Below, piece after piece: positions 3,592-43,500 of a DNA stretch of 64,000 nt. Source of the DNA: a virus; IMG/VR virus record IMGVR_UViG_3300028920_000064, positions 1 through 64,000 of that record; one strand, given 5' to 3'. Below the pieces are notes generated by a model. That model saw only the letters and a list, made by a program, of their open reading frames with translations. It was not told the origin of the DNA and searched no databases. A program made the position numbers and the translations under genes. How positions within the stretch are numbered: the first letter of the stretch is position 1; every line of letters starts with the position of its first letter.

Positions 3592-3851
3592 AAACATTCA
3601 AGATAAAATGGCACTCTGCAAAGAGGCATACGGAAATAAGCAACCCTCGGCCCGTTAAATGGGCTGAGGTTAGATCAGAAGATATCCGCATAGCAGTGGA
3701 TGGCACTCAAACGAACAACACTCTCTTAATTGTAGTTGAAGCCAACGGCATCAAGTATATGCTTACCGATGTGCTGTTAGAGGTCATGCTTGGACAGGTG
3801 GCTGAACAGTTCAGTAACGAATACCTCAACTTCAAAGTATACCAGTTATGA
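3588..3851 (+). CDS. Hypothetical protein
   Basis: An 87-residue protein, ATGA-coupled at both ends. The N-terminus is basic (MKTFKIKWHSAKRH). The middle alternates short beta-strand-like and helix-like segments (NTLLIVVEANGIKYMLTDV). There is no signal peptide, membrane segment or recognised domain. Confidence 0.55.
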   Translation: MKTFKIKWHSAKRHTEISNPRPVKWAEVRSEDIRIAVDGTQTNNTLLIVVEANGIKYMLTDVLLEVMLGQVAEQFSNEYLNFKVYQL

Positions 3852-4111
3852 TGGTAAGGATATACCTAGCTGAACAGCACCTTCCAAACATCGGCAAGTG
3901 GGAGATATACCGGGAGGGGAAGCCCACCGGAGAGATGATAACAAACAGGACCATTCGCAAGATTCTGAACGATGATCAGTATCGGCAGTTCATAGCAGGG
4001 GACACCATCTTTATGATCCCTGCTGACAAGTTCAGGAAAAGGCATCACAAGGAGAAAGTGGTGAAGAATGGGAGAATATACCACAACCAAAAAAAACGCA
4101 AAAATGGATGA
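3848..4111 (+). CDS. Hypothetical basic protein
   Basis: An 87-residue protein starting at tandem ATG codons that overlap the upstream stop. The C-terminal third is strongly basic (FRKRHHKEKVVKNGRIYHNQ), consistent with nucleic-acid contact. No domain is recognised. It overlaps the next gene by 8 bases. Confidence 0.55.
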   Translation: MMVRIYLAEQHLPNIGKWEIYREGKPTGEMITNRTIRKILNDDQYRQFIAGDTIFMIPADKFRKRHHKEKVVKNGRIYHNQKKRKNG

Positions 4112-4319
4112 GATAACGAAACATGAACAGGAGTATATCAACGGCATACAGGCAGAAATGATATTCTATGACCAATACCTTGATTTTATGAAGAGAGTGA
4201 AGAAGCAATACGTGGAATATGGGCCAGAGCAGGCAATAAGGTATGTTCAAAGCTACGCTGCCGACCTTGTAGGAATAGCTGCTGATGAGTTGTTCTCAGC
4301 ATTATTTAATAAATTGTAA
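4104..4319 (+). CDS. Hypothetical helical protein
   Basis: A 71-residue, probably all-helical protein. The frame is open from an earlier ATG at 4068, but that start would overlap the previous gene by 44 bases. The ATG at 4104 gives the 8-base overlap usual in this cluster, so I prefer it. The C-terminus (AADLVGIAADELFSALFNKL) is an amphipathic helix. No known domain. Confidence 0.5.
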   Translation: MDEITKHEQEYINGIQAEMIFYDQYLDFMKRVKKQYVEYGPEQAIRYVQSYAADLVGIAADELFSALFNKL

Positions 4320-4324
4320 CCGAT

Positions 4325-4717
4325 ATGCAGATGTTCGGTGACATAAAACTACCACTACAAAACGCTATTAAGGTTGATGGAGATGATATGAAGATACTTG
4401 ATTATCTCTTTGACATGAAGGCTGAACACATGAGCAAGTTTCTCAAAGCCCTCGCTCAAAACGATGTCCCCGCCCTCCTGGTCGCTAATGTTCGCCCGAT
4501 GAATATGGTAGGGTTAGTCGTTTACAGGCCAATTGAGGCATGGCTGGATTTTAAGGATCAAAGGTATCAGCTTTTCCTTGCTCCTAATATTCAGAACCTC
4601 ATTGACTATTGGGCTGTGAGAAAGGCAGGCGCTGAAGATGATTTTGAAAATGATCTGATTCAGGGCATCATCAACTACTTGGCTCAATTTATGCGAACAA
4701 CGGTGTCACATACTTAG
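4325..4717 (+). CDS. Hypothetical protein, last gene of first left-arm unit
   Basis: A 130-residue soluble protein with mixed helix and strand composition and no recognised motif. It starts six bases after the preceding gene and ends just before a strong intrinsic terminator, so it closes the radC-pcfK-pcfJ transcription unit. Confidence 0.55.
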   Translation: MQMFGDIKLPLQNAIKVDGDDMKILDYLFDMKAEHMSKFLKALAQNDVPALLVANVRPMNMVGLVVYRPIEAWLDFKDQRYQLFLAPNIQNLIDYWAVRKAGAEDDFENDLIQGIINYLAQFMRTTVSHT

Positions 4718-18034: not shown

Positions 18035-21000
18035 TTATTGGCCCCTTTGCGCTCTCTCTATTGCCTTTAATTCTGCTGCTTCCTTATTAAAATCCCTTGG
18101 CCTTCCGGTTTCGGGGTCAATTGATTCCTCAAGTGCTTTCCTCAAATCTGCCGCCACCTGTAAAACTATTGCCCCCTGCTGATCCTTTAGTGCGTTATCG
18201 GCTTGAACATTCTGGTCGAAATACCCATTCAATACATTCCTGAAAGCCGCATAGTGGCCCTCGTATCTGAGGTGCGGGTATCTCTTATACAAATTTATTA
18301 AATATTGCACATCAACAGATCCGTAAATCTGAGGATCCTTGTACAATCCTGTGTCATCCAGCTGCAGGGCCACTCTCCGGTTAGGCTCTCCCATTATTGG
18401 GGCGTATTCAAATGCGCCTATGGGATATTCAGCATAAGTGGAGAACTGCGAGAATAGGAAAGCATCCAACATCCTTGCGTCAATAAAGGGATTGTCCTCT
18501 GACCGCCAGGTGACATAATCTGATCCTTCCTGTATCATTCTGGAAAACTTGCTTGCATTTTGGGTTTCCCTGGACACAATGGCCACATCCCTCTCCTCTG
18601 GGGGAATGATATGCTTCTGTCGGTAAAGATCATAGTTTGTGGCCCAATTGATAAATCCTGAGAACCCACTGGTCACACCGCTTACGCTGTATGGATTCAG
18701 GTTCTGAATTGCTGACCACCAGAAGCCATCGCCAAAAGCGTCTTTGTCCTTCAATATAACACGGTCCATACCTCTTTGTGCAATAGATCCTATACGTCCC
18801 AGTTCAAAAGGCTTTGGCACGATGATCCATCCACGACCAAAAGGATTGGGAAGCCTGTAAAATCCATCTCTCAGGTAATTGGGATGAGTCAAATACTCTT
18901 CTTTCTCATCATCTGATATCCATGGTGCCCAGGCTATCAGCATTGAGTTCATAATAGAGGGCATGATGGAGAATAGTGCAAGATGTCCCAAGAACCGTCC
19001 CGGGCTCTTCTTTGCTACCCTCACAATCTTCTCAACGCCTCTGACAGCGGCGCTGGTGAATATCATAAACTTATTCAACTCACGCACAACTGTTCCTGCT
19101 GCAGCAAAATCCATGAGATCCCTTGCGATAAACGCTGCCCTGGCTGATGCCTCAACGTGGGATAGCCCATATTTCTTAATCCCCTCCTGGTAGGCTGACA
19201 TATACTGCAATCTACGAGTAGGGCGTTCGCTCATGTTTAGCTGCTTCCTGGCAAACTGGAAACCTTTCCCCACCAGGGTATATGTCGTACCTGGCCGGCC
19301 TCTTTTCTTGGCCTGTAGCATATACTGATGATGAGGCAGCTTGCTTTCTTTTCTTGCATTGATGCCGACAATCTGTTTACGTGGGACAAATCCGAACTGG
19401 CCACCACCATACCTTTCAAAGCCGTTATCTGCATCCTTATTGGGTAGCAGGTGCCAAGGTCTTGAATATCTTTTTGCAGTGCCAATCACTGACCACTGAA
19501 GAAGGTCTCGGATCATGTTCCTGTTCACAAAACGAACTGACCTGGTAATCGCCTTGCGTAATAACTGAGGGGCAAAAGAGATAATCTTCATTGCAAGACC
19601 ATCCTCTGAAGATATAAGGTCCTTCCAGTTATTGTATAGGTATTTATCCCCAAATACAAGGAACCTTTTTTCTCCGTTTTGGTAAAAAGCTATGCTGTTA
19701 GGTTCTGCTTTTTTGGAAACCCATGCGATCTCACCCTGCTTCACAACCTCTCCCTCATACATATCCCTGCCAACCCAATCTCTTTCAAACACATCGGCAA
19801 AGGTTTGAACCGTGTAGTTCATGTCCCCCACATCGATCACGTTTATCCAGGACCTGATAAGGTTGGACACTGGGTTATCAATGGGCCTGTCGCTTCCTTT
19901 AAAGGGAAATACGACATCCCTGGGGAGTAATCCTTTCCCGGATGGCCTTCTGTTTTCTTCAAACTCAAGATCCTTGCCGGCCACCATGTCTGCAGGCTCA
20001 ATAGCCTGAAGCCTGTTCATGCCCACATAGTCCAGGTTCTCGTTCTGTATAAGATCCTTGGTGTACTCAGAGATCAAGCCGGCCTGGTAAGCATAGTTGG
20101 ACCATTGCTTGCTGATCTCTCTATATATTCGCCAAAACTCGGTGATACCTTCAAAAAGCTCCGGATTATTTGCCTTAACCTCTTCAAACTCTTTGAGTGT
20201 TTCAACAGCGATATCATAATCTCTTTGTCCGGATTGAGCAGCACCTGTTATAACTATGTTGGTGAAATCATAACGCCCCTCCTCGCCTTTCGGGTCGATC
20301 CAAACCTTCTCCGGATCCAGCTTACCCTCATCGATGCGGGTAAGGATATCATTTATCTTCCCCTGCCACATTTCTATGATATGGGGATGCTGTGCCAATA
20401 GCTTCAGTGGTGGTAGCCGATCCTCTGTGTTTTCCAAATCAAACCTGATCAATCTTGCCTGGTATTTCTTTGGCAATTCAACAGCCCTTTGAGCAATGCC
20501 ATACTTCATAGCTTCAACTACATTGGCCTCGTATTCAGCGTCTGAATGCCCGGGGATAGCTTCGTACATTGAATCAAAAATCAATGGCCGGCCCGTTTTT
20601 GAATCGTAAATAGGGGTCCCATCAAGATCCATCACGCCCCTTTTCATAAGATTTTCCAACTTAACATCGATGCCCAGGTGGTTCCTGGCCATGATCTCAA
20701 AGTTTCTCAGTGGAGACAGTTGATTGGGATCATGGATATCCTTAATTCCTTTCTGCTTCGCTGCGTATTTGAAAGCCTCAACAAGTGGGTCAAGGAAGTA
20801 CCATATCCTCCTTCCCATCTTATCAAATATGGTTACTTTGAACTGGCCCTGCTCGTTTTCCCTGTTCCATTCAGTTTTTTGCCTTCCCTCTGTGGGATCC
20901 AGGCGAACATTGGCCAATAACTGATCCCCGGCTGAGGATCCGTAAAGAGTCCTGATATCCTTACCGAACTGAACCAGACCATCCCATACCTTTTTCTCTG

Positions 21001-24000
21001 GCATAAGCTGTGATGAGAACCATTTGTAAGTGGTGGGGAACCTTTTCTCTGCTTCATTTGGGTTCACAAGCCATGCCCGGGTAAACTCAGCCATGCCCTC
21101 AGCCATCTTGTATCTCTCTGGATTCTTATGCCCCCGGGGAGGCTTGCTTCCAAATTCCCAAAGATCTCTCAGTTCTGATTTGAGTTCAGAGTAAATAGGG
21201 TAAGCCTTGGGGCCAAGCAATCCATACTTGTCATCAAGGTAGTGGCCTATCTCATGTGCCGCTGTATCCTCATCACCAAACCTCTTGATACCCATCTTAC
21301 CAGTGGTGGGATCATACGCTCCTGCCGCCCTTCTGGTGGATGGCCTACGGGTATATTGAATTTTCTTTCCAATAGCATTGGAAACATCGTCCTGGATCTC
21401 CCACAGCTTCTTCGGGCTTTTCCCTTTCTCCGGAGTTATTGGGTCAGGTGCCACTCGGCCTTTGGTGGTCCTGTATATCATGCCAATTGGCTCATTATGG
21501 GGATTGGATAACCCTCCCCTGTCCACTGCTCCGGTACGTGGCGGTGCGCCATACTCGTCCATAGTGTTTGAGGCATCGGTCTGGTCCATGGCTCTTTGCA
21601 CTTGCTTGCTGCTTGATTCAATGGTCAGCTTGAACCGTTCGTCAAGAACATTCAGTAAAGGCTGTAGTGCATCCTCATTGAACTTTGCTACCATGCGATC
21701 ATTTTTCTGCTCAAACAGGCCATAGTCCACAATAGACTTGATCACCTCGTTAGCATAATACTTGGATCCGCGCTTGGTAGAGGCGGGAACCCTCAACTCA
21801 TATAGCTGTGGAGAGCTGTAAGTCAGCTTCTTTATCAACACATCCTTCGACATATCCTCAACCATGTCGTATGGAGCCAGGGCCTTGATGATGCTGGCAG
21901 CTTTCTTTATAGGTATCCTGGCCGTATTCTCAGTATCATTGATCCAGTTCTCAGGCATCAGTATACCTCTTTCAAGGCTACCGTCAGCCATGGAGAATTT
22001 AATCAATCGACCTTTCTTAAACTTAGTCATCCCTTGAAGGATGTTTCCGGTCACGATATACCTTTTCTCCCTGGTCCTTTTCTTTTTGATATCATCCCAG
22101 GTGTCGAGTATTTCCTGTGACTCCCTGGTTCCAAGATGGTAGCTGTTTCCCCTGATGGCATCCAGGTGTACGCTTTTACTGACAGGTATCCTGAACATCC
22201 TGCGGCTATCAGTGGTAGCAAATTTCAACAACACATTGCTCGGGACCCAGGGGTTGTCCTTCTTCATGTTCACATCATAACCGATAAACACTCCTTTGTT
22301 CATGCGAACCATGTCCAGCTGATCATCCTCAGTGAATGGGATCTCCAATCCTCTTCCGGGATAGAAGAAATCGAAATAGGATTTGAACTTTGATTTATGC
22401 AAAAGCGCAACAGATCTCAGCGTATCGATGCGATCCGCTTCACGCTGATCAATCTCGTTCTTTTTTAACTCATATTCCCGGGACTTCTCCTCCGGTGTCA
22501 ATCCCGACTTCTCCTCTATCTTCTTTTTCTGTAAGGTCCTGGCCTCATTGGAGCTTTCTGTAACTTTTGCAATCTGCTTGGCCAGCTGCTCATCGATCCC
22601 CTTATCCATGGCTGCCCTCATTTCCTCAACATGATTATCCGGAACCTCATCCAGCTTTTCCATCAACTGCTCTCGGGTAAAAGGCTTCCTGGTCACATTG
22701 ACATCTGATTTATTCAATACAGTGTCATCGCCAAAATATGAATATCCTCCTTCGCCATCAATAGAAACTTCACTCTCCACAAACTCGGCATCCAAGGACT
22801 CATTGGTCACCATCAAATCGTTGGTGCCGGTGCTGTTCAGATAGTCTATCTCTTGCAGGTATCTCTCCTCTACCTCGTTCTTAAACTCCTCCTGTAGTTC
22901 AGAGGGGAGAATTTGTATCCTTCCGGATACTCGGTGTGCTGCATCCTGCTTGTTGGGATCCTTGCCTCCAATATTCAGGGGATCACCTATCAGCTGATTG
23001 ATTTGCGGATTATCTTTCAGATACTCATATACCACATTGTCACCATACTTGTTCAGGAAATCAACAACATCCGCCAGGCTCTTGCTCTGCTTCTGATTTC
23101 CGGATGTGTTGGCATCAAGTGATTTCAGCTTCTTGGCATTCATCATAAAGTTCCTCAACTCTGCTGGGAGCGTTGAGGTAGCGATATTGTAAATCGGCTT
23201 ATTCAGCTGATCTGCCCGATAAACCCTACCGAACAGCTGAACCACCACATTGATATCGAAATCGTTTTGCAGTGTCCACATGGTCCTTTGACTCACATCG
23301 TCAAAGTCTGGCGATGAGTGCATGGAGATACCAGTAGATCCTGCCTTATTTACAATGGCCGCCACCCCTGGATTGTTGTTAAACCTGGCCACGGCCTTGA
23401 TCTTATCTCCCCTGTCATTCGTTACCCAGGTTCCCTTGGTCTCGTCTGCATTCATCTCAAACATACTGCCACGGCCAGTAATTTCAACTACCTCAAACCC
23501 TGCATCTGTGATTCCTTTTTTCAATACATCGATGGGAGATATAGGTATGCCGGTTGACATCCTTTGGATGTTTTCCATCATGGTATAATATCGATCTCTT
23601 CCGGTGGGTGTGAGATCCTCCGGTTCAAGCATCTTCTTGAGATCGTTGCCCTGCTCGTCTTTCTCGGTATATTTCATTACCGTATCCATCCCCCTCTTCA
23701 GGACATAGGAGAAATCCAAGTCTATAGTTTCCCCCTTTTTCAGTTCATCGTTATTAAACATATCCAGGAAGATGCTCTCCATGGTGCTTTTTAAAGCGAT
23801 AACCGGTTTCCGGCCTGCTTTCAAATCCTCAACGATCATTGGTATGGCCTCTCTCACCTTCACTGATAGTAATAGCTGATCGATGACATTCCATATACGG
23901 CTGAAGTATGGCTGATTTGATATACCTGCCTGGCTTGTGCCGGCTCTCTCTCCTACCTGCCTACCTTCACGCTTAACCTGTTCGTTCATTTCCTGCAGGA

Positions 24001-27000
24001 CAGGATTAATATAATCCCTCTGGAACTTAATGATCTCCCGTAGCACACTGGTTACATTGTCAAATCTTTGAACCATCTGCTTGCCCAGCTCGGGGTTATA
24101 TGATTTTTGTGAGGGATCAGTATCGCCAATAACGATATAATTCATTTCAGCATCCATCCGGAAGCCTATCTTGCTGAACTGTCCTGACTCTGCCAGCTGG
24201 TGAGTTATGATCTCCTGCAGGGCAGGACCACCGGCGATGATACCATCTACTAATTCCTCAAGGGACATATTTGCCTCCTGGAGAACGGTTTTCATTGCAT
24301 AAAGAGGCATGTTATCAGGACGCTTGGCATAGGTCGCTGACAAGAATATACCTCCATTGGTGTTCAGGATCCACTCTTTGAAAAACTCCCCGGTATTGCT
24401 CTGCCCGCTGGCCTCATGGCTCTCGTCCATTATGAACACTACATCGTGATCCCTGGTTAGCTGCCTCAAGAAGTCTCGCTTGGCATCATCCCTTCCCTCT
24501 GTGGTGAACTGGGAATAGGATGTCATTACCATTTTCACATCACTGGGAAGTTTACGGGATCCAGGCTTATCAGGTGTACCAACGATCCTTCTTAACTCTT
24601 TGAAATCAGCCTCCCACTTTGCTTCTCCTTCTTTGTCAAATACCTTCACCTTCTGTCCTGAACTGGAAAACTGCTTGTTCATTATAAAAGGCTTGTAATT
24701 GGGGGACCCGATGTTAACCAGGTCCCGATAAATATCGGTAAACAGATCAGCGCCTTTGGTGATAAATACTGGCAGCTTGCCGTTCTCAACAGCATACCTC
24801 ACAACTGATGCTGCAATTCTTCCCTTGCCGGCACCGGTCTGATGGCCGATGATCATCGCATTGTTCCCTTCAATATTGTAAATAGCCTGGCCAATACCAT
24901 CTATTTGCTCGGCAAAATTGCCTGTTGCCTTCATATCGTCCATGCTGTTGTACTTCAGCTTGGCCCGAACGTATTCATCAATATCTCCGATCTCATCACT
25001 CAGCTGCTTCAGTGCATCCTGTACCTCAGCTGCTATTGATGCAGGGATCACAAATTTGCCTGACCCCATCCTGCTCAAAGGAGTGTATGGAGTAACATCA
25101 TCAGAAGAGATGTCCTCTATACCAAGCTCTCGCTTACTACTCTCATCAGGCTTTCCAATGTTGTTTGTTGGTAAATCGAGCGCACTTCGCGTGGGTCGAA
25201 CTTCTCCAAATCTTCTAATTTCTCCCCTTCGTCCCGTCTGATCAGTTCCACCAAATGATTTTGGAATTGTGGACTTCGCATTATCTGTTCTGCTTGCCCT
25301 GGTACGTCCGGCTCCGGGATCAGGTCTAGTAAATCTTGGATTAATGAACGCCTCATCTCCAGCGGCTCCTTGCTCAGGAGGGATTCCAGTTTCTTCTGAA
25401 ACAGTCTGATCAGATCCGGGACGCTCTGTGGTTGGGTTTGGGTCGGTTTCTCTACCGCCCACAAGCGAATCAGATCCTCGCTCGGCATCCACTTCTCTTT
25501 GTAAGCTATTCCTTTCATTCGCTTTAGTTTTTAGGATGTTAATTCTGTCACGTACATCTATCCAATCAGTAACAGGGTCAAATGATTTGTTGTAGAGTGG
25601 GGCTGCACCTTTCTTCTCTGTCTTACGGCCATTGACCAATATCAGCTTTACAGGATAACTTGCGCCCATGGTTTTATACAGATCCCCAGGAATCTGTATC
25701 ACATCCTCAACGTAATAATTCTTGTTCAGCCAGTTGAAAAACGCCAGGTCTTTCCCAAGCATCTGATCGTTGGGTTTGAACTTCACATGGCCACCGGTAA
25801 TGATAGCCGCTTTCCCTGTATCGCTTAATGATTTAAGAGCATGGGCAACAGGCAGGTATTCACCATGTAGCCAGTACCCTTCAAAATCTTCGGTCCTGCC
25901 ACCGAAAGGAGGATTGATATGGACAGCATCCACGGTTCTTACATCCAGCTGATCCTGGATCCCCCGGGTGCTGTCCACATTAAACACCCGATATCCTTGC
26001 TCAATGAGGTTTTGCCAACGCCCTTTGTCAATCTCATTGGCCCGCACTCCTTTTCTGTTTGCTGTGATCAACAAAGCACCGTTGCCGGCACTGGGATCCA
26101 TGACATTATCAACATCCTTTGCATTGGTATATTCACCCATAAGAAAAGCCAGGGGAACGGGAGTGCTGTATTGTTGCTTCTCCTTGATCTCATTGGTCCG
26201 GTATGATAGAGTGGGGAACGTGGTATACAATTCCTGGATTCGTGAAAATTTCTCATCGCTGGTCAGTGTCTCATCCATAGCGATGGTTCGGGCCACCTCA
26301 ACCATGGCCACTTCTGCCCTCTCACGAATGTTTGTCTTGTTGGTAACGCCCCACTTTTTTGCAATAGCTGTTAGCTCCCTGAAATCAGCAATCGGCTCTC
26401 CATTCCATATCCGGTTCTTCACCTCCCAGGTAAATGCTCTTTGACGTACCAGGTTATGCTTTTCCTCAGTTTCATCTAAAATCTCTGAGAAATACTTTAC
26501 TGATTTAGCTAGCTTCTCTTTTGAGGCGAACTTATATCCTTTTGCCAATGATCTCGCATGAGACCCTATGCCATACATGGCCATAATGGGCGATGTCGGA
26601 TAGAACCTGTCATGCAGATATCTTATCTCGCTGATTCCATTGTTGGTAAATCCCAGCTGGGCAAGGATCTTGTGATGATCGTTTGTCAGCCTCACAAGCC
26701 TATCCAGGTCCTCTTTTTTGGCATGTTGGAGTATAAATGGTGTCAACGGCTCACCTCGCTTGACATAACTTTCTAGCAGCTCTAAAACGGTCTCCTGGGT
26801 CCAATCTGTCTCAACAGGTATGGGGGTGAACATAACCTTTCCTGAAAGGATATCGTTCTTCCTTCTTTCATACTCAGCTGCTTTTTGTTTGTTGGCGATA
26901 TCCTCCTTCCAATCAACCTCTGCCTGAAAGTAGGATCTCGGTTGCCTGTACATCTGCTTCTCAAGTCGTTCGGCCTGGTCCATTTGACCGATAGATTTGT

Positions 27001-30000
27001 AGATGTCAATGATCTTGCTCAGTTCATCCCTGTATTCTTTGTTGTCATACGGGGGAACTTCCTCTGCTTTTCCCTCAACGATGAGTTCACGGAACTTATC
27101 AACTATGACCGCCTTCTTCGACTCTCCCCGGATAGACATGGGATCCTCCATGATGGCCACAGTTAGCTTATCGAACTGTGCCGGTGCCTCCCCGAACAGC
27201 CCCCCTAAATCTTTTACTCGCTGATCTCGGGGATCAGTCCATTCCTCCACCCTTACGATCTTGAGTTCTTTGGAGAGTTCAGGGATGTAAAATACTTTTC
27301 CTACTATATCGGAATATGGATCCTGTGCCGGTATCTCCGTCTGTCCCGCCGCCTCGCTGCCGGCTGTGGCCTTTGATTGATCAAGCGCATCGATCTCCCT
27401 GTTCAACGCTTCTATCTCTGCATCAAAAGGTTGTAATGCTTTCTTAATGTTTTCTTCAGTAGGCTCAAAGGTTTCATCGAACATCACCGGGGCATTGGGA
27501 TCGGCCTTGGTGTCACCAAACAATCCTTTGCGGTCAGTCAGTTCAGCATACTTTTTCTGTTTCTGCTTCTGAATGTCCTGGATCTTCTCACGTTTCTCAG
27601 TGATCTTATCCTCAATCTCCTTGGTTACCCTTTCCCTTTCCCTTCTGTTTTCTGCCGGACTTGCTCTTTCACCGACTCCACGATCAGGGCGTTCTTCGCC
27701 AAGCTCTGCTTCGACAGCTGCCCTGGCTGCTTCTTGTTCCTTGATTTCATCTTCAATGTTTTTAAGGTACTGGTCTTTTTCTGCTTCAGTCAATAGGCCC
27801 ATTTCAACAGCTGCATCCACGTTGTTAGGAGCCAGGTCACCATATTGCATGGTGAATTTTTCAAGATTTGCATCACCAATGGTGCTTAAAACCTTATTTA
27901 TAGGAACGCCTACCGGTGGGGTGTTCCTGGTTTGCCTAATGTTCAACACACCTTGGTTGTATGCCAAATCCAGGAAGTTCAATAACTTATTGGCGGCAAC
28001 AGTGTTCTTGCCGGCTTTGATGTTTTTGACAGCAGATTGTATCTGTCTTTTATCCAGCCAGACATCAGCCCCCTCAAGGTATTCGGGGTTATCCATTAAT
28101 TTGTTGACGAAATCAATGAACCCGGGATCCTCGTATTCTTCCAGTGTTTTCTGCGCATCGATCTCCTCCTGGGTTACCTTATCGGCTATCCTTCGTATGG
28201 GCTTACCCTCTTTATCCCGTACAGTCAGATCCCCTTTCTCAGTTTTAATGGTATAGCCAAGCTCATTTACTGCCCTTCCTATGTACTGATAAAGATCTGC
28301 CCTTTTCTGAGTGTAACTTTTGGGGAGATTGTTGTATTTCTCAACAAAGTCAATCACAGCATTATGCCTGTTCACTCTGATTTTCTCGTCATACTCAGCT
28401 TTTAAAGCCTCATCTTTTTCGGTTTGCTTTTCCTTCTCCTTCTTAACCTTTTCAGCAGCTTCCGGATAAAGCTCATTGAAGATTGCGCTTACCCTTTCAA
28501 GCATGGCTGCTCCTTGATACTTGTCTGTATCAATCCAGATCTCTTTCTCTGGAATATAATCTTTGGTTTGTGATGTTGCGCTGTCCTCAAAGGTGGGATC
28601 CACCATGCGCCTCATCTCCTCACCACTTACCATTATTGTCTTTACATCGTTTGGAAGGGATAGTGCTTGATATTCTTGCTTGGTTACCAGCTTTTCTATG
28701 TTCTCAGGCTGAACGCCCTCTGCCGGTTCCTCTTCTACTGGCGGTTCCTCTACGGGGGCCTCCTCCTCTATTGGAGTTGTGAGATCTTCGGTTAAAACAT
28801 TCTTGATATGCTCACGGATGGTGATATCGGGATCAATCTCTTCCTCCCTTGCCCGGGAAATATCATCCCACACATACAGCATTGCGTTGTCAAACTCTGT
28901 CTGAGTGAGATCCGGAGCAAGTTCTCTGATGGTTTTTTCAATATCCCCCTGGATCTGCGCTGCATAATCACCTACCTCTTTCTGCCAATCTTCAGCCAGG
29001 ATCTCTGCGGCTCGGTTCATGTTGCGAAGTTCCTGGTCTAGCTTCTTGCGCTCTTTCTTCTGTTCTAGTGTTAATCGGCCTTTGAACTCGGTATCCAGGC
29101 GTTTCTGAATAGCTTCACGATCCTTGGTGATCTCCTCCACTTTGGATGCAACTTCATCCTCTCTGGCCACGAAACGAGCATTCAGGTCCTTCAGCTTTTC
29201 ATTCAGAATTTCTTTTGGTTTCCCAAAAACTGTTTCAACCTCTTCCTCAACCACGGGTTCCTCTGTAGGTTCTTCGGGTGCCGGCTCTTCTTTTGCCTTC
29301 CGGATCTCCTTTGCTTTCTCAATGGCCCTTACCACATCGATGTCCATGTCGGGTAATGGAAGCCTTTCGGTGGGGTATTTCGCCAATTCTTCAGCAAGAT
29401 CTTCTATACTGGCAAAGTCCCGGCCACCATACCTGATCATCCCTTCCTCTTTCTTAGGAAGGGCTTTCCTTTCTTCCAATGCCTGCTCGGTTACGGCCAG
29501 AGCTTCTAGCACATCAGCCCTGATTATGGGGATATCCTCAACATTCTTGATAGTCCGTTTATCCCTGCCAAGTATTTGAATCACATTTTGAACATCCAGG
29601 TTCAAATCTTCATTTTTGATATCCCCTGTACGTCCTTCTTCATACATGGCATCAAGGGTCTGGATGATATTCTTTGCAACATCCTGCCTTTCCCTTAACT
29701 GGGCCTCATTCATAAATTGAGTATCGAAGGTCCATGGCTTTGTCTCATCCACCTCAACCTCTACCTTCGGTGCCGGTTCTTCTTCTACTGGGGGTTCCTC
29801 AGCAGGGGGCTCCTCTTCAACTGGCTCAGGCTCTACAGGAGGTTCTTCCGGAACGGGTTCAGGTTCAGGTTCAGGTTCAGGTTCGGGCTCAGGCTCTGGT
29901 TCAACAGGCTCTTCTACGGGTGGCTCGGGAGGTTCAACAGGCTCAAGGGGTTCTCCCTCTTTCTTTCGGGTTGCAATATCAACTCCCTTGATAGCCACAC

Positions 30001-31339
30001 CGCCGGCAGTAAAGTATGCACCACCAGCGAATCCTGCCCAAAATGAATCCCAGGCATTGTCCATGGGTTCAGCGTCGGGCCTTACGCCTGTGTGTTTATC
30101 AACAATATTTTCTCCGACAGCATTGATAAATTCCTCCGCACCCTCTTGAACAGGTGCTGTCCATAGACCTACCTTTCTGTAGGTTGCCATCATCCAGGAT
30201 CTCAATCCGGTTTCAAGCACCTCTTTTGTAGCATCTTTCCCGATAGTCTTTATAGATGCTTTTATCAGATTACCAAGACCCTGAGTGCTAAGTTCTGTCA
30301 GTGACTCAAGTGTGCCTGTCAAAGCCGCATTAAGTATGGCTGCCCCCTCCGGGGTTTCAGCCTCGATCAGCCTTTCATATTTTTCCCCTCCAACGTATAA
30401 CCCCAATGAAGCAAGTCCCGGTGCGCCACCGAATGCTGCAACTATTGTAAGTGGTAAACTTTCGGCACCTTCAAGAACAGCTGCGCCAACAGCTTCCTTT
30501 TTGTTCCCGTCATTCCATAGTTCAGTTATGGTTTTATCATACCGCTTACTGCGGTCCAGGAACATCTTTTCCCTTTCTTCCCAATTCTTGTAGTAGTTGG
30601 TGCGGGTATCAATAAGGTTCTTGACATCGTTGGATGCTTTTAATGTTTGCACCGGTCCTAGCGCACCAAACCCCATTTCCTCTACAATCTCTCCAACCTT
30701 ATCCGCTTTCCCCGGGTCTATGCCCAGTTTCTTCAGTTCCCACGTAAACACTTTCCCCGGGACGGTCAATAGCTTTTCCGCAAACTTGGAACCTTTCTTG
30801 GAATATTCTGGTAGCTTGGAAACCCCAGCCAGGATCCTCTCTCCCAAATCACCCATGAAAGATTCTTTGGCAGGCTGCCCTTCCTCTCCCGGTAAGGGTG
30901 CCAATAAGCCCTGTGGCTCTCCCTCTGGCATGAGCATCGTCATGGCATCTTTTGTGTCAAGATCCTCTGTAGACTTGGGAGGTTCGCCTTTAGGCCAATC
31001 CATAGGGGGCTTGGGGGCTTCTGGTATGTAATCCTCAAACGAAGGAATAGGGAAAGGATCTGCCGGCTGTACCGGAGGAGGAAACTTTTCTTGAAGATAT
31101 TTTGCCCTAGCTGATTCAATCTGTACCTGATCGGCTCCTTCCTCTGCTTCAATAGGGGCCAGGTATTTATCAAAATACTTGTTAAGCCTATCTTCCTTTT
31201 CCTCATCAGAAGCCTGCTGGTATGTCGGATCGTTAAGCATCATGTTCTCATAGAACTTGGCTCTTTCACGTTTCGACAAACCCCTGTCCTGTGTGGTGGG
31301 GTTATAATCAGGCTTCTTTACAGTTTCTTTCTTTCCCAT
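18035..31339 (-). CDS. Giant polyvalent protein: adenine methylase + Strawberry-notch helicase + HExxH + LPD38-like
   Basis: A 4434-residue protein. Order of recognisable parts: an N-terminal helical and Gly-rich region (1-470) with hydrophobic stretches like those of internal virion proteins; an EP-repeat linker (about 479-495); acidic and coiled linkers to about 1600; an N6-adenine methylase with DPSAGNGALL (~1746) and catalytic NPPF (~1808); a disordered linker (~1940-2070); a Strawberry-notch type superfamily 2 helicase with Walker A GHQTGAGKGR (~2163), DESH box (~2303), the EVVEITGR segment (~2616) and LFGRVYRADQ (~2700); an HEIGH zinc-peptidase-like motif (~3359) with a later EGMAEF; and a C-terminal LPD38-like region (~4038-4300). 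Methylase plus Strawberry-notch helicase is the architecture of P1 DarB, an injected antirestriction protein. It lies directly after two internal-type virion genes and before lysis, so it is probably packaged and ejected with the DNA. Domain calls are from motifs; the ejection role is inference. Confidence 0.85.
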   Translation of the reverse strand: MGKKETVKKPDYNPTTQDRGLSKRERAKFYENMMLNDPTYQQASDEEKEDRLNKYFDKYLAPIEAEEGADQVQIESARAKYLQEKFPPPVQPADPFPIPSFEDYIPEAPKPPMDWPKGEPPKSTEDLDTKDAMTMLMPEGEPQGLLAPLPGEEGQPAKESFMGDLGERILAGVSKLPEYSKKGSKFAEKLLTVPGKVFTWELKKLGIDPGKADKVGEIVEEMGFGALGPVQTLKASNDVKNLIDTRTNYYKNWEEREKMFLDRSKRYDKTITELWNDGNKKEAVGAAVLEGAESLPLTIVAAFGGAPGLASLGLYVGGEKYERLIEAETPEGAAILNAALTGTLESLTELSTQGLGNLIKASIKTIGKDATKEVLETGLRSWMMATYRKVGLWTAPVQEGAEEFINAVGENIVDKHTGVRPDAEPMDNAWDSFWAGFAGGAYFTAGGVAIKGVDIATRKKEGEPLEPVEPPEPPVEEPVEPEPEPEPEPEPEPEPVPEEPPVEPEPVEEEPPAEEPPVEEEPAPKVEVEVDETKPWTFDTQFMNEAQLRERQDVAKNIIQTLDAMYEEGRTGDIKNEDLNLDVQNVIQILGRDKRTIKNVEDIPIIRADVLEALAVTEQALEERKALPKKEEGMIRYGGRDFASIEDLAEELAKYPTERLPLPDMDIDVVRAIEKAKEIRKAKEEPAPEEPTEEPVVEEEVETVFGKPKEILNEKLKDLNARFVAREDEVASKVEEITKDREAIQKRLDTEFKGRLTLEQKKERKKLDQELRNMNRAAEILAEDWQKEVGDYAAQIQGDIEKTIRELAPDLTQTEFDNAMLYVWDDISRAREEEIDPDITIREHIKNVLTEDLTTPIEEEAPVEEPPVEEEPAEGVQPENIEKLVTKQEYQALSLPNDVKTIMVSGEEMRRMVDPTFEDSATSQTKDYIPEKEIWIDTDKYQGAAMLERVSAIFNELYPEAAEKVKKEKEKQTEKDEALKAEYDEKIRVNRHNAVIDFVEKYNNLPKSYTQKRADLYQYIGRAVNELGYTIKTEKGDLTVRDKEGKPIRRIADKVTQEEIDAQKTLEEYEDPGFIDFVNKLMDNPEYLEGADVWLDKRQIQSAVKNIKAGKNTVAANKLLNFLDLAYNQGVLNIRQTRNTPPVGVPINKVLSTIGDANLEKFTMQYGDLAPNNVDAAVEMGLLTEAEKDQYLKNIEDEIKEQEAARAAVEAELGEERPDRGVGERASPAENRRERERVTKEIEDKITEKREKIQDIQKQKQKKYAELTDRKGLFGDTKADPNAPVMFDETFEPTEENIKKALQPFDAEIEALNREIDALDQSKATAGSEAAGQTEIPAQDPYSDIVGKVFYIPELSKELKIVRVEEWTDPRDQRVKDLGGLFGEAPAQFDKLTVAIMEDPMSIRGESKKAVIVDKFRELIVEGKAEEVPPYDNKEYRDELSKIIDIYKSIGQMDQAERLEKQMYRQPRSYFQAEVDWKEDIANKQKAAEYERRKNDILSGKVMFTPIPVETDWTQETVLELLESYVKRGEPLTPFILQHAKKEDLDRLVRLTNDHHKILAQLGFTNNGISEIRYLHDRFYPTSPIMAMYGIGSHARSLAKGYKFASKEKLAKSVKYFSEILDETEEKHNLVRQRAFTWEVKNRIWNGEPIADFRELTAIAKKWGVTNKTNIRERAEVAMVEVARTIAMDETLTSDEKFSRIQELYTTFPTLSYRTNEIKEKQQYSTPVPLAFLMGEYTNAKDVDNVMDPSAGNGALLITANRKGVRANEIDKGRWQNLIEQGYRVFNVDSTRGIQDQLDVRTVDAVHINPPFGGRTEDFEGYWLHGEYLPVAHALKSLSDTGKAAIITGGHVKFKPNDQMLGKDLAFFNWLNKNYYVEDVIQIPGDLYKTMGASYPVKLILVNGRKTEKKGAAPLYNKSFDPVTDWIDVRDRINILKTKANERNSLQREVDAERGSDSLVGGRETDPNPTTERPGSDQTVSEETGIPPEQGAAGDEAFINPRFTRPDPGAGRTRASRTDNAKSTIPKSFGGTDQTGRRGEIRRFGEVRPTRSALDLPTNNIGKPDESSKRELGIEDISSDDVTPYTPLSRMGSGKFVIPASIAAEVQDALKQLSDEIGDIDEYVRAKLKYNSMDDMKATGNFAEQIDGIGQAIYNIEGNNAMIIGHQTGAGKGRIAASVVRYAVENGKLPVFITKGADLFTDIYRDLVNIGSPNYKPFIMNKQFSSSGQKVKVFDKEGEAKWEADFKELRRIVGTPDKPGSRKLPSDVKMVMTSYSQFTTEGRDDAKRDFLRQLTRDHDVVFIMDESHEASGQSNTGEFFKEWILNTNGGIFLSATYAKRPDNMPLYAMKTVLQEANMSLEELVDGIIAGGPALQEIITHQLAESGQFSKIGFRMDAEMNYIVIGDTDPSQKSYNPELGKQMVQRFDNVTSVLREIIKFQRDYINPVLQEMNEQVKREGRQVGERAGTSQAGISNQPYFSRIWNVIDQLLLSVKVREAIPMIVEDLKAGRKPVIALKSTMESIFLDMFNNDELKKGETIDLDFSYVLKRGMDTVMKYTEKDEQGNDLKKMLEPEDLTPTGRDRYYTMMENIQRMSTGIPISPIDVLKKGITDAGFEVVEITGRGSMFEMNADETKGTWVTNDRGDKIKAVARFNNNPGVAAIVNKAGSTGISMHSSPDFDDVSQRTMWTLQNDFDINVVVQLFGRVYRADQLNKPIYNIATSTLPAELRNFMMNAKKLKSLDANTSGNQKQSKSLADVVDFLNKYGDNVVYEYLKDNPQINQLIGDPLNIGGKDPNKQDAAHRVSGRIQILPSELQEEFKNEVEERYLQEIDYLNSTGTNDLMVTNESLDAEFVESEVSIDGEGGYSYFGDDTVLNKSDVNVTRKPFTREQLMEKLDEVPDNHVEEMRAAMDKGIDEQLAKQIAKVTESSNEARTLQKKKIEEKSGLTPEEKSREYELKKNEIDQREADRIDTLRSVALLHKSKFKSYFDFFYPGRGLEIPFTEDDQLDMVRMNKGVFIGYDVNMKKDNPWVPSNVLLKFATTDSRRMFRIPVSKSVHLDAIRGNSYHLGTRESQEILDTWDDIKKKRTREKRYIVTGNILQGMTKFKKGRLIKFSMADGSLERGILMPENWINDTENTARIPIKKAASIIKALAPYDMVEDMSKDVLIKKLTYSSPQLYELRVPASTKRGSKYYANEVIKSIVDYGLFEQKNDRMVAKFNEDALQPLLNVLDERFKLTIESSSKQVQRAMDQTDASNTMDEYGAPPRTGAVDRGGLSNPHNEPIGMIYRTTKGRVAPDPITPEKGKSPKKLWEIQDDVSNAIGKKIQYTRRPSTRRAAGAYDPTTGKMGIKRFGDEDTAAHEIGHYLDDKYGLLGPKAYPIYSELKSELRDLWEFGSKPPRGHKNPERYKMAEGMAEFTRAWLVNPNEAEKRFPTTYKWFSSQLMPEKKVWDGLVQFGKDIRTLYGSSAGDQLLANVRLDPTEGRQKTEWNRENEQGQFKVTIFDKMGRRIWYFLDPLVEAFKYAAKQKGIKDIHDPNQLSPLRNFEIMARNHLGIDVKLENLMKRGVMDLDGTPIYDSKTGRPLIFDSMYEAIPGHSDAEYEANVVEAMKYGIAQRAVELPKKYQARLIRFDLENTEDRLPPLKLLAQHPHIIEMWQGKINDILTRIDEGKLDPEKVWIDPKGEEGRYDFTNIVITGAAQSGQRDYDIAVETLKEFEEVKANNPELFEGITEFWRIYREISKQWSNYAYQAGLISEYTKDLIQNENLDYVGMNRLQAIEPADMVAGKDLEFEENRRPSGKGLLPRDVVFPFKGSDRPIDNPVSNLIRSWINVIDVGDMNYTVQTFADVFERDWVGRDMYEGEVVKQGEIAWVSKKAEPNSIAFYQNGEKRFLVFGDKYLYNNWKDLISSEDGLAMKIISFAPQLLRKAITRSVRFVNRNMIRDLLQWSVIGTAKRYSRPWHLLPNKDADNGFERYGGGQFGFVPRKQIVGINARKESKLPHHQYMLQAKKRGRPGTTYTLVGKGFQFARKQLNMSERPTRRLQYMSAYQEGIKKYGLSHVEASARAAFIARDLMDFAAAGTVVRELNKFMIFTSAAVRGVEKIVRVAKKSPGRFLGHLALFSIMPSIMNSMLIAWAPWISDDEKEEYLTHPNYLRDGFYRLPNPFGRGWIIVPKPFELGRIGSIAQRGMDRVILKDKDAFGDGFWWSAIQNLNPYSVSGVTSGFSGFINWATNYDLYRQKHIIPPEERDVAIVSRETQNASKFSRMIQEGSDYVTWRSEDNPFIDARMLDAFLFSQFSTYAEYPIGAFEYAPIMGEPNRRVALQLDDTGLYKDPQIYGSVDVQYLINLYKRYPHLRYEGHYAAFRNVLNGYFDQNVQADNALKDQQGAIVLQVAADLRKALEESIDPETGRPRDFNKEAAELKAIERAQRGQ
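29856..29903. repeat. Hexameric repeat coding for Glu-Pro linker
   Basis: Eight consecutive GGTTCA-like hexamers on the plus strand (the first four identical, the others with one or two changes), which encode alternating Glu-Pro on the minus strand within the giant protein. EP repeats form stiff, extended linkers. The array could expand or contract by slippage. Confidence 0.85.
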
Positions 31340-31350
31340 TGATCTAAATG

Positions 31351-32979
31351 TTAGGGAGTTTGATTCAGCACACCATACATCTCTGCCATATATTTCTTGA
31401 TCTCCTGGAGGTCGTATTCTTCAGCGCCCATCTTTGCAAGATAGGCGTTGTTCACACTGGCCCAGGGAGTGATAATCGTTTTTCCATGCTTGGATACATA
31501 ATCGCTCCATGATACAGTTCCCATGGACTTCTCTTCCTGCGCTGCGCCATATACCGATTTTGTAAGCAGATATGGTTCGTAGGTCAGGGGGATCCCCTGG
31601 TTAATCATTGCTTTCAGAACCTGTGTGGGTATCGGCTTGCCTGGGCGTACAGTGTATTTCTTCGTTGATCGGTTGCCCTCTTTGTCAACATGCTCATACT
31701 CCATGGGTAGATTATCCGATCCATTGTATGTGGGCATGAAGGATATTGATGCCGCCTTGTGGGATCCTATCTTAGTCCTGTCTGGCTCGGCTCCTGTGCT
31801 GGTATCAATTGCATCTGCCGGGGTGATGGAGTCAAACACCTCATCGATGCCTGAAAGAGGTATGTTATATGCTTCGTATTCCATCTCATCAGCCTGTTGC
31901 ATCTCAGGCGTTTCCTCCTTCTTCTTCCCTCTCCAATTGGTTTTATAGGTAGCCGGGGTGATGGTCTGTGACTTCATCACGATGGGCTGATTGGCTGCTG
32001 CCAGGTCAATGCTACCATCATCTGTTCGTGGTATACCACCTCTGAGACCGGTGGGCTCGCCCTGATCATCCTTCGGCAGCCTTGATGTTTTCTTGGTAGT
32101 GGTAGTTCCGTGTAATCCGGAGAACTTATTGGCAAACCATTCTTTCGGGTCCATGACAATACCGTCAGCATTTCGTTTGTCGGGGGCTACCTCATACATG
32201 GAATCGATGGCGTTCTTCATGTTCGGCTCTGCCATTTCGTAGCCAATGCGGTATGCTTCGTGAACTTTCTTGGGATCAGCCCCGGTGATCTGTGTGGTAG
32301 TCATTGTGTTTGTGATAGGATCAACCTTGATTTCATGGCTCATCACATCCGAACCTTCTACCATGGATCCTACTTTCTTCGCATAACCAATGATGTCCTG
32401 TGGCTCGGGTTTGTAAACAACAAGGGTTCCTGCATTGTCCACAAATGGTTGGGCAAATTCTGTGACATCCTCTGCCTCATTCATTCTTTGAACATTCTGG
32501 TTGGTGAGTTCCCAGTCGATCTTATCCCTATTGGCTCCCCGCATCACTGCCAGGTCCTTTTTGTATTGCTCTGCGTAATGGTTGTGAATAGGTATATCCG
32601 TAGCCATCTTGTTCTCAAGTTCGGATAGCTTGGCCGTGACGTTCTCTCCTTCAGGTGTCTTTGCCATCTTTGCCAATCCCCCTGCTGCCTGTTGCTGCTT
32701 AAACAGGGCACCCATCTGAACCAGGTCTTTATTGTACTTGCTTGCTATTTTTTTATTAATACCCTCTACGGTGGGCATCGATTTGATGTATTGCTCATAA
32801 TTTCTCTGGTCCAGCTCCTTATTCATCATTCTTTCCTGCCTGGACTTTTCCCAGCCGGCACGAATGGTGGCAATGGGATCGTAGGAACTCTTTCCAAGAT
32901 CCGGTACACCTATTCCCAATGGATCGGCCCCTTCTGGTATGTTGAAATTAACATCGCTATAACTTGTTCCCTTTGCCAT
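31351..32979 (-). CDS. Putative internal virion protein
   Basis: A 542-residue soluble protein between the giant polyvalent protein (11 bases away) and the Gly/Gln-rich 221-residue protein. It is mostly helical to about 170, then mixed, with Thr-rich and polar stretches. No catalytic motif is visible. Its place after the tail protein and beside two likely ejected proteins suggests a cargo or internal virion protein, as in podoviruses. I recognise no named family. Confidence 0.6.
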   Translation of the reverse strand: MAKGTSYSDVNFNIPEGADPLGIGVPDLGKSSYDPIATIRAGWEKSRQERMMNKELDQRNYEQYIKSMPTVEGINKKIASKYNKDLVQMGALFKQQQAAGGLAKMAKTPEGENVTAKLSELENKMATDIPIHNHYAEQYKKDLAVMRGANRDKIDWELTNQNVQRMNEAEDVTEFAQPFVDNAGTLVVYKPEPQDIIGYAKKVGSMVEGSDVMSHEIKVDPITNTMTTTQITGADPKKVHEAYRIGYEMAEPNMKNAIDSMYEVAPDKRNADGIVMDPKEWFANKFSGLHGTTTTKKTSRLPKDDQGEPTGLRGGIPRTDDGSIDLAAANQPIVMKSQTITPATYKTNWRGKKKEETPEMQQADEMEYEAYNIPLSGIDEVFDSITPADAIDTSTGAEPDRTKIGSHKAASISFMPTYNGSDNLPMEYEHVDKEGNRSTKKYTVRPGKPIPTQVLKAMINQGIPLTYEPYLLTKSVYGAAQEEKSMGTVSWSDYVSKHGKTIITPWASVNNAYLAKMGAEEYDLQEIKKYMAEMYGVLNQTP

Positions 32980-32997: not shown

Positions 32998-33663
32998 TTA
33001 AGACATTATTCCACCTGCAATATCCATTATTTTACCAAAGGTCCCGCCAGTGAAAACATTGCCAAGCTGTTGGGCGGTTGCGTCAAGTGCGCCACCCATG
33101 CCTTGAAATGATTCAGCCCATGACCCCATCTTGGTTTTTAAACCTTCCCACTCTCCCTGCCGGCCCTGCTGTTCAAGCATTGCTGCTTTCTGCTGCGCCA
33201 TAAGGTAAGGGTCAGCCTCGTTCCAATTCCATGCTTGCTGCTGCCATTGACCAAGCCCCTCTAAGGCCCCCAGGTACTGATCCTCTGCTTGGTTCCTGAA
33301 CTGTGCATTTGTCACACCCAGGTTTGCAGTAGTATCCATTTGGTTTGCATAGAGATCTGCAATACCTCCGAAAGCCTCAGCACCGGTACCCATCTCTTTC
33401 ATGGCTTCTACCCCTCCGGCAGTGGCTTTTTGAATTTGGTTTTGCATTGTAGTTAGACCGGGCATATTTTGAAACCTTTTACCACTGGCCAGCTCCATCA
33501 TCATCTGTATGGCTTGCGGTGTTTGCATCTCCGGGCGCTGGAAAGACTGCGACAAGGATCTTGCCTCGTCAATCATGCCCTGCCCCAACTGCATTTGTTT
33601 CTTGCCCAAACGGGAACCCTGGATCCCGGCACCGATGTTTCCTAAGAATGAGAATATACCCAT
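32998..33663 (-). CDS. Putative ejection protein, Gly/Ala/Gln-rich
   Basis: A 221-residue protein that begins MGIFSFLGNIGAGIQGSRLG and ends GGTFGKIMDIAGGIMS. Gly-rich hydrophobic ends with a helical Gln/Met/Ala-rich middle are typical of small podoviral internal core or ejection proteins that insert in membranes (T7 gp14 and P22 gp7 type). The assignment is by composition and position only. It lies 17 bases after the 1248-residue tail protein. Confidence 0.6.
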   Translation of the reverse strand: MGIFSFLGNIGAGIQGSRLGKKQMQLGQGMIDEARSLSQSFQRPEMQTPQAIQMMMELASGKRFQNMPGLTTMQNQIQKATAGGVEAMKEMGTGAEAFGGIADLYANQMDTTANLGVTNAQFRNQAEDQYLGALEGLGQWQQQAWNWNEADPYLMAQQKAAMLEQQGRQGEWEGLKTKMGSWAESFQGMGGALDATAQQLGNVFTGGTFGKIMDIAGGIMS

Positions 33664-40540: not shown

Positions 40541-43500
40541 TTACACTATATTAAGTTTGCTTTTAAGATCTTCTATCTCTAATTGTTGCTCTTTTACAGC
40601 ATTGACCAGCAAGGCAACCACTCCGTCATAATCTATGTTTAGATAATCAGTTTGGCCAAGTTTCCTTACAGCCTCTGGCAACACTGCCTGGACATCTTGA
40701 GCTGACAGGCCGGCTCTCATGCTACCATCCAGGCCCGTTTCTATCTGTCCTTGTTCGTTTAAGCTGTACAGGAATCCTTCAAGGGCCATCACCTTCTGTG
40801 TTGCGCTAGAGATGACGCACTCGTAATTTTTCAACCGGATATCAGAAGTAGAAGCCCCTCTTCTTACCTCGTTGGTAGTGCTGTCATAAGTAAGGTAATA
40901 ATCACCCGCTGTTGTATTGATGCTGGTGATGTGTATGGTGTCTACAAATATGTCATCAAAAGGATACCCAGCATTCCCAAGATTCACATCACCACCTGCG
41001 CCTGAACTTGGGATAATGCTATAATAGGGCCAAATACCACCTGCCCCTATACCCAAATGTCGATTACTACTTCCGTAAAAATAAATATATCCAGGCGTGT
41101 TACTGCCTTGAATCCAAACAGTATTGGCTCCAAATTCTAAATGCTCAGTATCAGCCAGTCTTATATCATCGCCAGAGGTGGCTGGGGTAATTACATTAGA
41201 AGTCACATCCCAGGCCCCACCGCCTGCTGTACCATAGGTAAGCAGTCCGGATGTGGTGTTGTAATAAACCACGTTTGTCTCCGATCCCTTTGCTTCAAGA
41301 TGTCCTGCAGAACCGGTTCCAAAATATATCTGACCATCCGTTCCGGCGGTAAGGGCCAAGCCTCTCTTTAAATACAGGTTCCCGCCATTTCCCCCTGCGC
41401 TATCACCTCCTGCTACTGTCAAATTCCCCCCTGCTGAGGTATCAATACTTTGTTTTGCCTGTAAACTATTTGTTACGACATAACTCCAAGGAAATGTCGG
41501 TGAACCAAGAGAGCCTGGGGTTGATCCTGGGAAAATACCTCTGTTATTGTTTAATGTTAAACTGCCTACGTTTGTTGCATTCTGAGCATTGAAATTGATT
41601 GTCGCATCAGCAACAGATATACTTGTGGTGCCATTACCTACGATCAAATAATTATCAGTAAGGGTTCCGGATGCTGTTACGTCTCCGCTTCCACCAGCGA
41701 GGTCGGACAACGTGTAGGATCCCGTACTATCTGTCAACTCCATTTCGGTCCCGTCTACATCGATATATACAGAGGCGCTGTCTACATACAGCCTGTTCAC
41801 ATAGGCGTTATTCCAATAATATGAGCTTGATCCTAACTCCAATGTTTTAGTTGCATTTGGGATCACATTCAGGTATGGCCGTATTGATAAAGCTCCCACC
41901 AATAACGCAGTACCACTATTACACGTTATATTGATACTGTTAGCTGCTGATTCAAAAATATAGGTATCACCGTCACCAAAGGTTATTCTTTCAGTGGTAT
42001 TGGCCAAAAGGATGTCATCCCCTGGATTTGTTGGACTTAAATTGGTGCCGGTCCTTGTCCATGCTGAATTTGCAACGCCATCAGCGTAATCTTTGACTGC
42101 CGCCCAGTCGGGTATCCACCGATCCAGTGTAGTTCCCACAGTAGAATAATCATCTGCATATTGAAATCCAATTGAATCTTCAGTATCCGTTACTGTTATC
42201 GCATCGACATCAAACTGTATATTTTTAACTGTACTAGGTGGTCCGGAAACAGAGTTTACCCATCCAATAGCGGTAAGCCCGCCAGAATAAAGAGTTGAAT
42301 TAGTTCCTGACAAAGCCCCAAAACTTTGTACATAACTAGAAGCGCCAATCGTTCCAACATAAAATGTTCTGCTTGTTCCACTAAAAGCTACACTGCTAGT
42401 AAGTGCGCCTCCCAGGTCTACATTACCTGCAACCTCAGTAAGTCCAGAATCAAATGTGTAATAAGAAGAAGCCGCTGTGTCTGCATAACCTTTGACTGCC
42501 GCCCAGTCGGGGATCCATCGATCAAGGGAACTGCCCGCGGCAGAATAATTGGCATTATAAACCATCCCAATGAGATCCTGCTCGTCATATACAGTAAAAT
42601 TATCTGCCCCGATATGGAATCCTTTTGGATCAGTAAACACACAAACTAAGTTTATTTCTGGATCATTATAAGGGCTTATGTGAAGATATCCGTAAGATGA
42701 AACGCTAAATTGGGCTTGTATTAGTATATCATCTTCGGAGGAAACATTAAAGTATTGAATTTGCTGATTACTACCGTAGGTTCCAAACGTAATCCCATAA
42801 ATATTACCTCCGTTGATTGTAACGTCTGTGCTTAAAGTTCCGCCCCAATCTACATTGCCTCCGGCCTCAGTGATACCGCTATCAAAGGTGTAAACCGTTG
42901 CTGCGCCAATTGCGGCAAACACAGCGCCTGATGTGGGTATGTGGGTATCATCGTCCGTGAGGGTTGTTTCCACAGTATCAACACTGCCTGAACCTGTGAG
43001 AGATCCATATACCCCTGCAGCCGTTCTCCTTAAAATACCATTTGAACCAAAATCACCATCTACCACCACATCAGAGTGTGAGGTTTCATACGTGCTTACA
43101 CCGGTATTAAAATCTGAGATATCAGCATACCCAATTGAATGCGGGTTTCCAGTGGTGATCTGGCTGTGTGAGTATGCTGTATCCCAGTTTGAAGAGCTAT
43201 CTGTGATTGTATCATATACCCCAGCTGCAGTTCTTCGCATCAGCCCATTGGCGGTAAAGTCACCATCAACAATAACATCAGCATGAGATGTCTCATAAGT
43301 GCTTACTCCGGTGTTGAAGTCCGTGATATCTGCATATCCAATGCTGTGAGGATTCCCTGTGGTAATTTGGCTATGGGAATAAGCGGTGTTCCAATTGGCA
43401 GAGTTATCCGTGATTGAGGTGTCCCATCCTGATCCGGTGGAGAGGGCTATTCCCGCACCTGGATACACCATTCCACCACCAGAGGGTGCATCAGCGTAGG

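Follow-up and report, generated by a model that had tools for sequence, protein, structure and literature searches.

We describe a giant viral gene in which an N6-adenine DNA methylase, a Strawberry-notch (SNO) helicase, a zincin-like peptidase site and a C-terminal module with an LPD38 domain follow each other in one chain of 4434 aa. The gene lies in the window, which is bases 1-64000 (64,000 bases) of a 77,440-base IMG/VR virus record, and its product is a phage-type polyvalent protein, of a kind already described. By analogy with related giants, we consider it quite probable that the protein is packaged, that it enters the cell with the DNA and that its methylase-helicase part modifies this DNA against restriction.

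Domain architecture of the giant protein

The gene is a single uninterrupted ORF with an ATG start, as the preliminary description had reported without giving a strand. It runs on the minus strand; on the plus strand of 18035..31339, stops abound in the frame read. All the motifs quoted earlier were located in the protein, namely DPSAGNGALL (residue 1748), NPPF (1809), GHQTGAGKGR (2165), DESH (2305), EVVEITGR (2616) and HEIGH (3362). Moreover, the methylase, Strawberry-notch and LPD38 domains that had been proposed were recovered in a profile search as the Pfam families N6_Mtase, AAA_34/Helicase_C_4 and LPD38. The features of the window are listed in Table 1.

Table 1. Features of the giant protein and of the neighbouring virion gene block (window positions).
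Feature	Position	Strand	Basis
Giant polyvalent protein gene, 4434 aa	18035..31339	-	ORF; homologous 4477-aa gene in L011
N-terminal Gly/Ala-rich region, aa 202-450, hydrophobic stretches from 283-299	29990..30736	-	blastp, HMM, hydropathy
Acidic Pro/Glu-rich linker, ~aa 470-560	29660..29932	-	sequence; poorly conserved
N6-adenine DNA methylase domain, aa 1713-1918, with QQYSTP, DPSAGNG, NPPF	25586..26203	-	Pfam N6_Mtase E 1.6e-7
Strawberry-notch type helicase, N-terminal ATPase half, aa 2139-2388, with GAGKGR and DESH	24176..24925	-	Pfam
Strawberry-notch helicase, C-terminal half, aa 2616-2775	23015..23494	-	Pfam Helicase_C_4 E 2.3e-19
Zincin-like metallopeptidase domain, aa 3299-3451, HEIGH 3362-3366	20987..21445	-	family alignment; homology
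Putative C-terminal delivery module, ~930 aa (aa 3514-4428)	18056..20800	-	HMM homology to phage proteins
LPD38 domain, aa 4147-4274	18518..18901	-	Pfam PF18857 E 1.9e-12
Upstream neighbour, 542 aa, probable internal/ejection protein	31351..32979	-	position only: BcepIL02 gp69 (530 aa), phi40:1 gp100
221-aa gene, probable internal virion protein	32998..33663	-	position only: BcepIL02 gp68 (234 aa), phi40:1 gp99
Tail/virion structural protein, 1248 aa	33680..37426	-	phrog_14478 E 7.5e-38; Cellulophaga and Flavobacterium phage matches
Virion structural protein, 254 aa	37426..38190	-	phrog_13977 E 5.8e-20; elemo gp23 E 1.3e-12
Virion structural protein, 234 aa	39282..39986	-	phi38:1 gp95 E 9e-11
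Major capsid protein candidate, 460 aa	58192..59574	-	phi38:1 gp93 E 6.7e-12; same-place Calle_1 gene annotated so
Portal protein, 767 aa	60842..63145	-	phrog_6547 E 2e-63; tblastn

Iyer et al. (2017) described phage polyvalent proteins, with their methylase-SNF2/SNO dyad, their LPD domains and zincins as likely processing enzymes (PMC5512222). The protein of the window combines several disparate activities in one chain (methylase, helicase and LPD38 by Pfam, metallopeptidase by homology), its gene is near late and virion genes, and its LPD38 belongs to a domain listed as phage-only (PMC5512222). These features, together with a C-terminal module shared with BcepIL02 gp70, support the kinship with giant polyvalent proteins of other phages that had been suggested. 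Among the SNO polyvalent proteins of Iyer et al., e.g., Methylomonas WP_020485828.1, the methylase is likewise coupled to an SNO helicase, and metallopeptidase and LPD domains are a theme of the class; the likeness to WP_020485828.1 is by description (PMC5512222). No match to the giant was found by phmmer among PDB sequences, and no significant one in PADLOC and NCBIfam searches.

In the closest relative, L011 from IMG/VR, genes of 225 and 543 aa precede the homolog, which has 4477 aa. The two giants are 67-83% identical in the domains vs 37% in aa 451-600. Their comparison gave pN 0.19 and pS 0.75, hence a dN/dS of ~0.06, which is a rough figure since synonymous sites are near saturation; the giant gene is under purifying selection in this pair. 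The N-terminal region (aa 202-450) is common to BF1-TP2 gp68 (blastp E 4e-20), and phi38:1 gp101 is weakly similar to aa 292-492 (blastp E 6e-5).

The methylase carries both the TP and the NPP(Y/F) motifs of EcoKI/TaqI-like N6 methylases, as QQYSTP and NPPF, with a GIGS sequence N-terminal to the domain. QQxSTP, GNG and NPPFG are invariant in an alignment of the giant with BS-TP4 and Acinetobacter phage proteins. For the helicase, Pfam ResIII (2139-2318, E 9.6e-9) and AAA_34 (2160-2388, E 5.8e-8) match the N-terminal half, so that with Helicase_C_4 both halves of an SNO-type enzyme are present; LPD36 had no match to the giant in the Pfam scan. The helicase had been attributed to the type of P1 DarB. 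This attribution does not hold, although the two proteins are alike in having an N6 methylase followed by an SF2-type helicase, and their methylase parts fall in the same Pfam family (hhalign probability 94.6%). DarB (2255 aa) has an SNF2-family helicase (SNF2-rel_dom/Helicase_C rather than AAA_34/Helicase_C_4) and neither LPD38 nor HExxH, and membership of the giant in the DarB family was rejected on the helicase families.

In the methylase-helicase core, identity is 32-33% with BS-TP4 gp3 and ~25% with a 1986-aa Acinetobacter phage protein. Viral contigs searched with a single core sequence gave no match; with a three-row alignment as query, one scan revealed a core relative at 119 viral loci, of which the best 80 were kept, and a second scan found 62 genome loci. 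Among the core-containing frames, NPP[FYW] and GxGK are kept in nearly all and DESH in most. Iyer et al. spoke of 'a few instances' of the SNO subtype (PMC5512222), whereas the 119 loci indicate that the Strawberry-notch form of the virion giant is common among uncultured viruses. Homologous short methylase-helicase forms are present in cyanobacterial genomes and Acinetobacter plasmids; four loci on Acinetobacter plasmids and contigs (L121, L131, L120, L135) encode methylase-SNO proteins of ~2000-2200 aa without the module, L121 and L131 being titled as plasmids.

Virion gene block and packaging of homologs

In transcription order, the block reads portal, capsid, fibres and tail proteins, the 1248-aa protein, the 221-aa and 542-aa proteins and, as its last gene, the giant. 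Given that the portal, capsid and tail proteins match those of Flavobacterium 'elemo' and Cellulophaga podoviruses, a Bacteroidota host is likely, and the virus is probably a phage of such hosts. The same region holds a 2947-aa tail-fibre-like protein (40541-49384, minus strand) with repeated units of ~100 residues and a C-terminus that, by eye, resembles an endosialidase-type intramolecular chaperone. Outside the window, a 2125-aa repeat-unit protein lies on the strand of the structural block (L002 5714-12091, record bases ~67713-74090). A frame at 293-1090 on the plus strand, opposite to the structural block, has a RadC-like sequence with an HNHPSG motif, also seen by eye.

The giant had been placed directly after two internal-type virion genes. 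The placement is confirmed; the 'internal-type' status is given by position only, because neither neighbour is similar to the tested Cellulophaga, Flavobacterium or BcepIL02 counterparts. The two genes were thus rejected as recognisable homologs of phi38:1 gp99/gp100 or BcepIL02 gp68/gp69. The gene order of the window (~220 aa, ~540 aa, giant) is nevertheless that of BcepIL02, where genes of 234 and 530 aa precede the 4667-aa giant. More generally, the DarB-like giants of Bcep22-like phages (Lessievirus and related), i.e., BcepIL02 gp70 (4667 aa), JC1 gp69 (4515 aa) and CSP3 orf43, are like the protein of the window in size and in combining an adenine methylase with a helicase, and they also end the structural block after two virion genes (~200 and 510-530 aa). 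In BcepIL02 gp70, in addition, an HExxH stands shortly ahead of the LPD38 module, which is homologous to that of the window protein (E ~1e-143). These giants differ in that they carry a lytic transglycosylase at the N-terminus and a helicase of SNF2/HepA type, whereas the protein of the window has a Strawberry-notch helicase and no transglycosylase match; LPD3 also occurs in those of JC1 and BcepIL02.

Two phages bear on packaging. JC1 gp69, which comprises transglycosylase-like, methylase, helicase, LPD3 and LPD38 domains, was identified by 51 unique peptides in virions purified on CsCl; its coverage of 15.6% is compatible with a whole or a cut chain (PMC9144972). Moreover, the annotation of phi40:1 gp101 (1691 aa), the last gene of the corresponding block, and of the four genes preceding it derives from MS/MS proteomics; phi38:1 gp101, closely related to phi40:1 gp101, is the protein noted above for its weak similarity to the N-terminal region. 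In relatives, the genes that lie upstream of giants include families of DNA ejection protein, internal virion protein and endolysin. The earlier proposal of a packaged protein is therefore supported as the best inference, and the giant is probably packed in the virion. P1 DarB is itself carried in the virion and is believed to enter the cell, as part of a system that guards against type I restriction (PMC9024508); antirestriction in P1 depends on several partner proteins (PMC9144972).

The C-terminal module also occurs in other phages. A profile of aa 3480-4434 and its relatives matches BcepIL02 gp70 at 3773-4650 (E 3.6e-143), as well as proteins of pelagiphages (Pelagibacter) and of Bacillus, Vibrio, Escherichia and Achromobacter phages, and LPD38 is present in 39/40 aligned relatives. 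Many viral structure matches of an AF2 model of the module are named large polyvalent proteins; they are only supportive, because the model is weak (mean pLDDT 50). What stands upstream of the module varies from methylase-SNO to methylase-SNF2 (BcepIL02), InPase/PBECR5/ART (BF1-TP2) or nearly nothing (pelagiphages). A separate alignment (A6) contains 30 giants without a match to the first C-terminal profile (e.g., L056, L125); LPD39 occurs in the last 900 aa of 4/30, with single cases of DNA polymerase A, Toprim and transglycosylase domains.

The zincin-like domain at the cargo/module joint

The peptidase-like HEIGH site of the preliminary description belongs to a domain homologous to Vibrio phage 1.211 gp14 (30% identity, E 3e-16), with HExxH and EGxAEF conserved, although no Pfam model matches the region. 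HExxH is accompanied by a downstream Glu, which in polyvalent zincins lies in a helix: EGMAEF follows HEIGH, the candidate zinc ligand being Glu 3414 or 3418, and neither HExGH nor E..AEF varies among 6 aligned relatives. In a weak AF2 model (mean pLDDT 51), the order helix, three strands, two helices agrees with a zincin; its PDB structure matches include the zincins IrrE/PprI and Zmp1 at non-significant scores (Foldseek, best E 6e-3).

Two phage proteins have a site of this kind in the same order. In Vibrio phage 1.211 gp14 (2715 aa), encoded after the portal, coat and stabilization protein genes, the NPPF motif, the homologous metallopeptidase and the C-terminal module are arranged as in the giant, whereas helicase motifs were not found. 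Bacteroides phage BS-TP4 gp3 (5391 aa), a phage for which our literature search found no paper naming it, is 32% identical to the giant over ~1530 aa of methylase-helicase, followed by an HExxxH site and the LPD38 module; it differs by extra ddrB-ParB and InPase domains, by HEAVAH instead of HEIGH, and by a gene position before the portal gene. A HEIFH at residue 1543 and a DUF3293 were also seen in elemo gp18 (L006:38719-49803; 3694 aa), the last gene of a Flavobacterium elemo phage, which has no match to the C-terminal module profile, its end being different or too diverged.

We counted HExxH/HExxxH patterns, rather than profile matches, among proteins that are related by descent, so that the counts are not fully independent. 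Considering methylase-helicase proteins with a frame closed at the 3' end, the motif is present 700-2000 aa after DESH in 61/76 giants (>=2700 aa) vs 0/17 shorter proteins, and shuffled sequence gives it in this stretch at 3.7%. We also took 27 module-bearing representatives, <50% identical to each other in the module. Where >800 aa stand upstream (25 proteins), the motif is found just before the module (<=500 aa before, or 60 aa into it) in 22, compared with 1.7% in shuffles; the 2/27 with little upstream have none. A chance origin of HEIGH was rejected on the homology to gp14 and on this recurrence at the joint.

The peptidase had been regarded as part of the modification and translocation machine. 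It does not look like one: it tracks the C-terminal module, even where the cargo differs (BF1-TP2 gp68) or the helicase is of another family (BcepIL02 gp70), and it is absent from the short methylase-helicase proteins as well as from module-only forms. Nor is its combination with a methylase and helicase as striking as was suggested: it is precedented, metallopeptidase being the commonest domain of polyvalent proteins (PMC5512222). The location of the candidate peptidase fits an enzyme that releases the cargo. That it is an effector against host proteins and not a self-processing enzyme is an option listed by Iyer et al., zincin domains acting as effectors in other conflict systems (PMC5512222); given its association with the joint and its absence from cargo-only and module-only forms, we regard this as somewhat unlikely. 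We find it a little less probable still that the domain is structural only and that packaging requires it. Iyer et al. cite a precedent in the N4 virion RNA polymerase, which is packaged uncut and for whose corresponding region such a role is reported (PMC5512222); against this reading, even very diverged relatives retain the HExxH or HExxxH pattern that binds zinc.

Proposed role in infection

We infer packaging from the homologs and, with it, injection, methylation, antirestriction and self-cleavage, as follows. The giant would be packed in the capsid of a short-tailed Bacteroidota phage. At the start of infection, the LPD38 module at its C-terminus would bring it into the cell, perhaps with help from the hydrophobic region near the N-terminus. 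The methylase and Strawberry-notch helicase/translocase would then run along the entering DNA, methylating it before host restriction enzymes cut, and the zincin-like domain would most likely cut the chain at the joint, freeing the cargo from the entry module. Packaging, entry and antirestriction are proposed because of the homology with virion proteins and the DarB analogy; release of the cargo is proposed because of the position of the peptidase alone.

Alternatively, the giant could serve chiefly as a structural ejection protein. Its C-terminal module and its N-terminal region would then carry phage DNA across the envelope, while the methylase-helicase would use ATP to pump the genome in, methylation being of secondary importance. 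The helicase family is indeed of translocase type, module-only versions adjoin tail and internal virion genes in pelagiphages, and giants in relatives adjoin DNA ejection proteins (phrog_4287, 6/60), besides internal virion protein and endolysin families, encoded upstream. Nevertheless, NPPF and the TP motif are kept in the family, so methylation seems selected, and the module stays while cargo varies or is absent, so the helicase is apparently not needed for entry; we hold this alternative to be improbable. Least probable is that the methylase-helicase is not injected and either modifies host DNA or shields phage DNA while still in the producing cell, as the short forms on plasmids and in cyanobacteria and the reliance on homologs for packaging in this phage might suggest, given that the cargo is fused to a module whose homolog is in virions and that the gene lies within the structural block.

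Returning to the packaged methylase-helicase, a wider and more tentative reading, drawn from sequence comparison, is that LPD38 giants may constitute a modular delivery platform. It would consist of a C-terminal entry module, exchangeable upstream cargo (methylase-SNO, methylase-SNF2, InPase/ART/RNase, or none) and, between the two, a zinc peptidase that would free the cargo after entry; we think it possible rather than likely.

Taken together, these results extend the DarB-like virion giants to a probable Bacteroidota phage with a Strawberry-notch helicase. What is new is that the peptidase recurs where cargo and module meet. This turns the general proposal of 2017, that peptidases process polyvalent proteins, into a specific prediction of where the chain would be cut, for which cultured relatives, e.g., Bacteroides phage BS-TP4 and Vibrio phage 1.211, offer a test.
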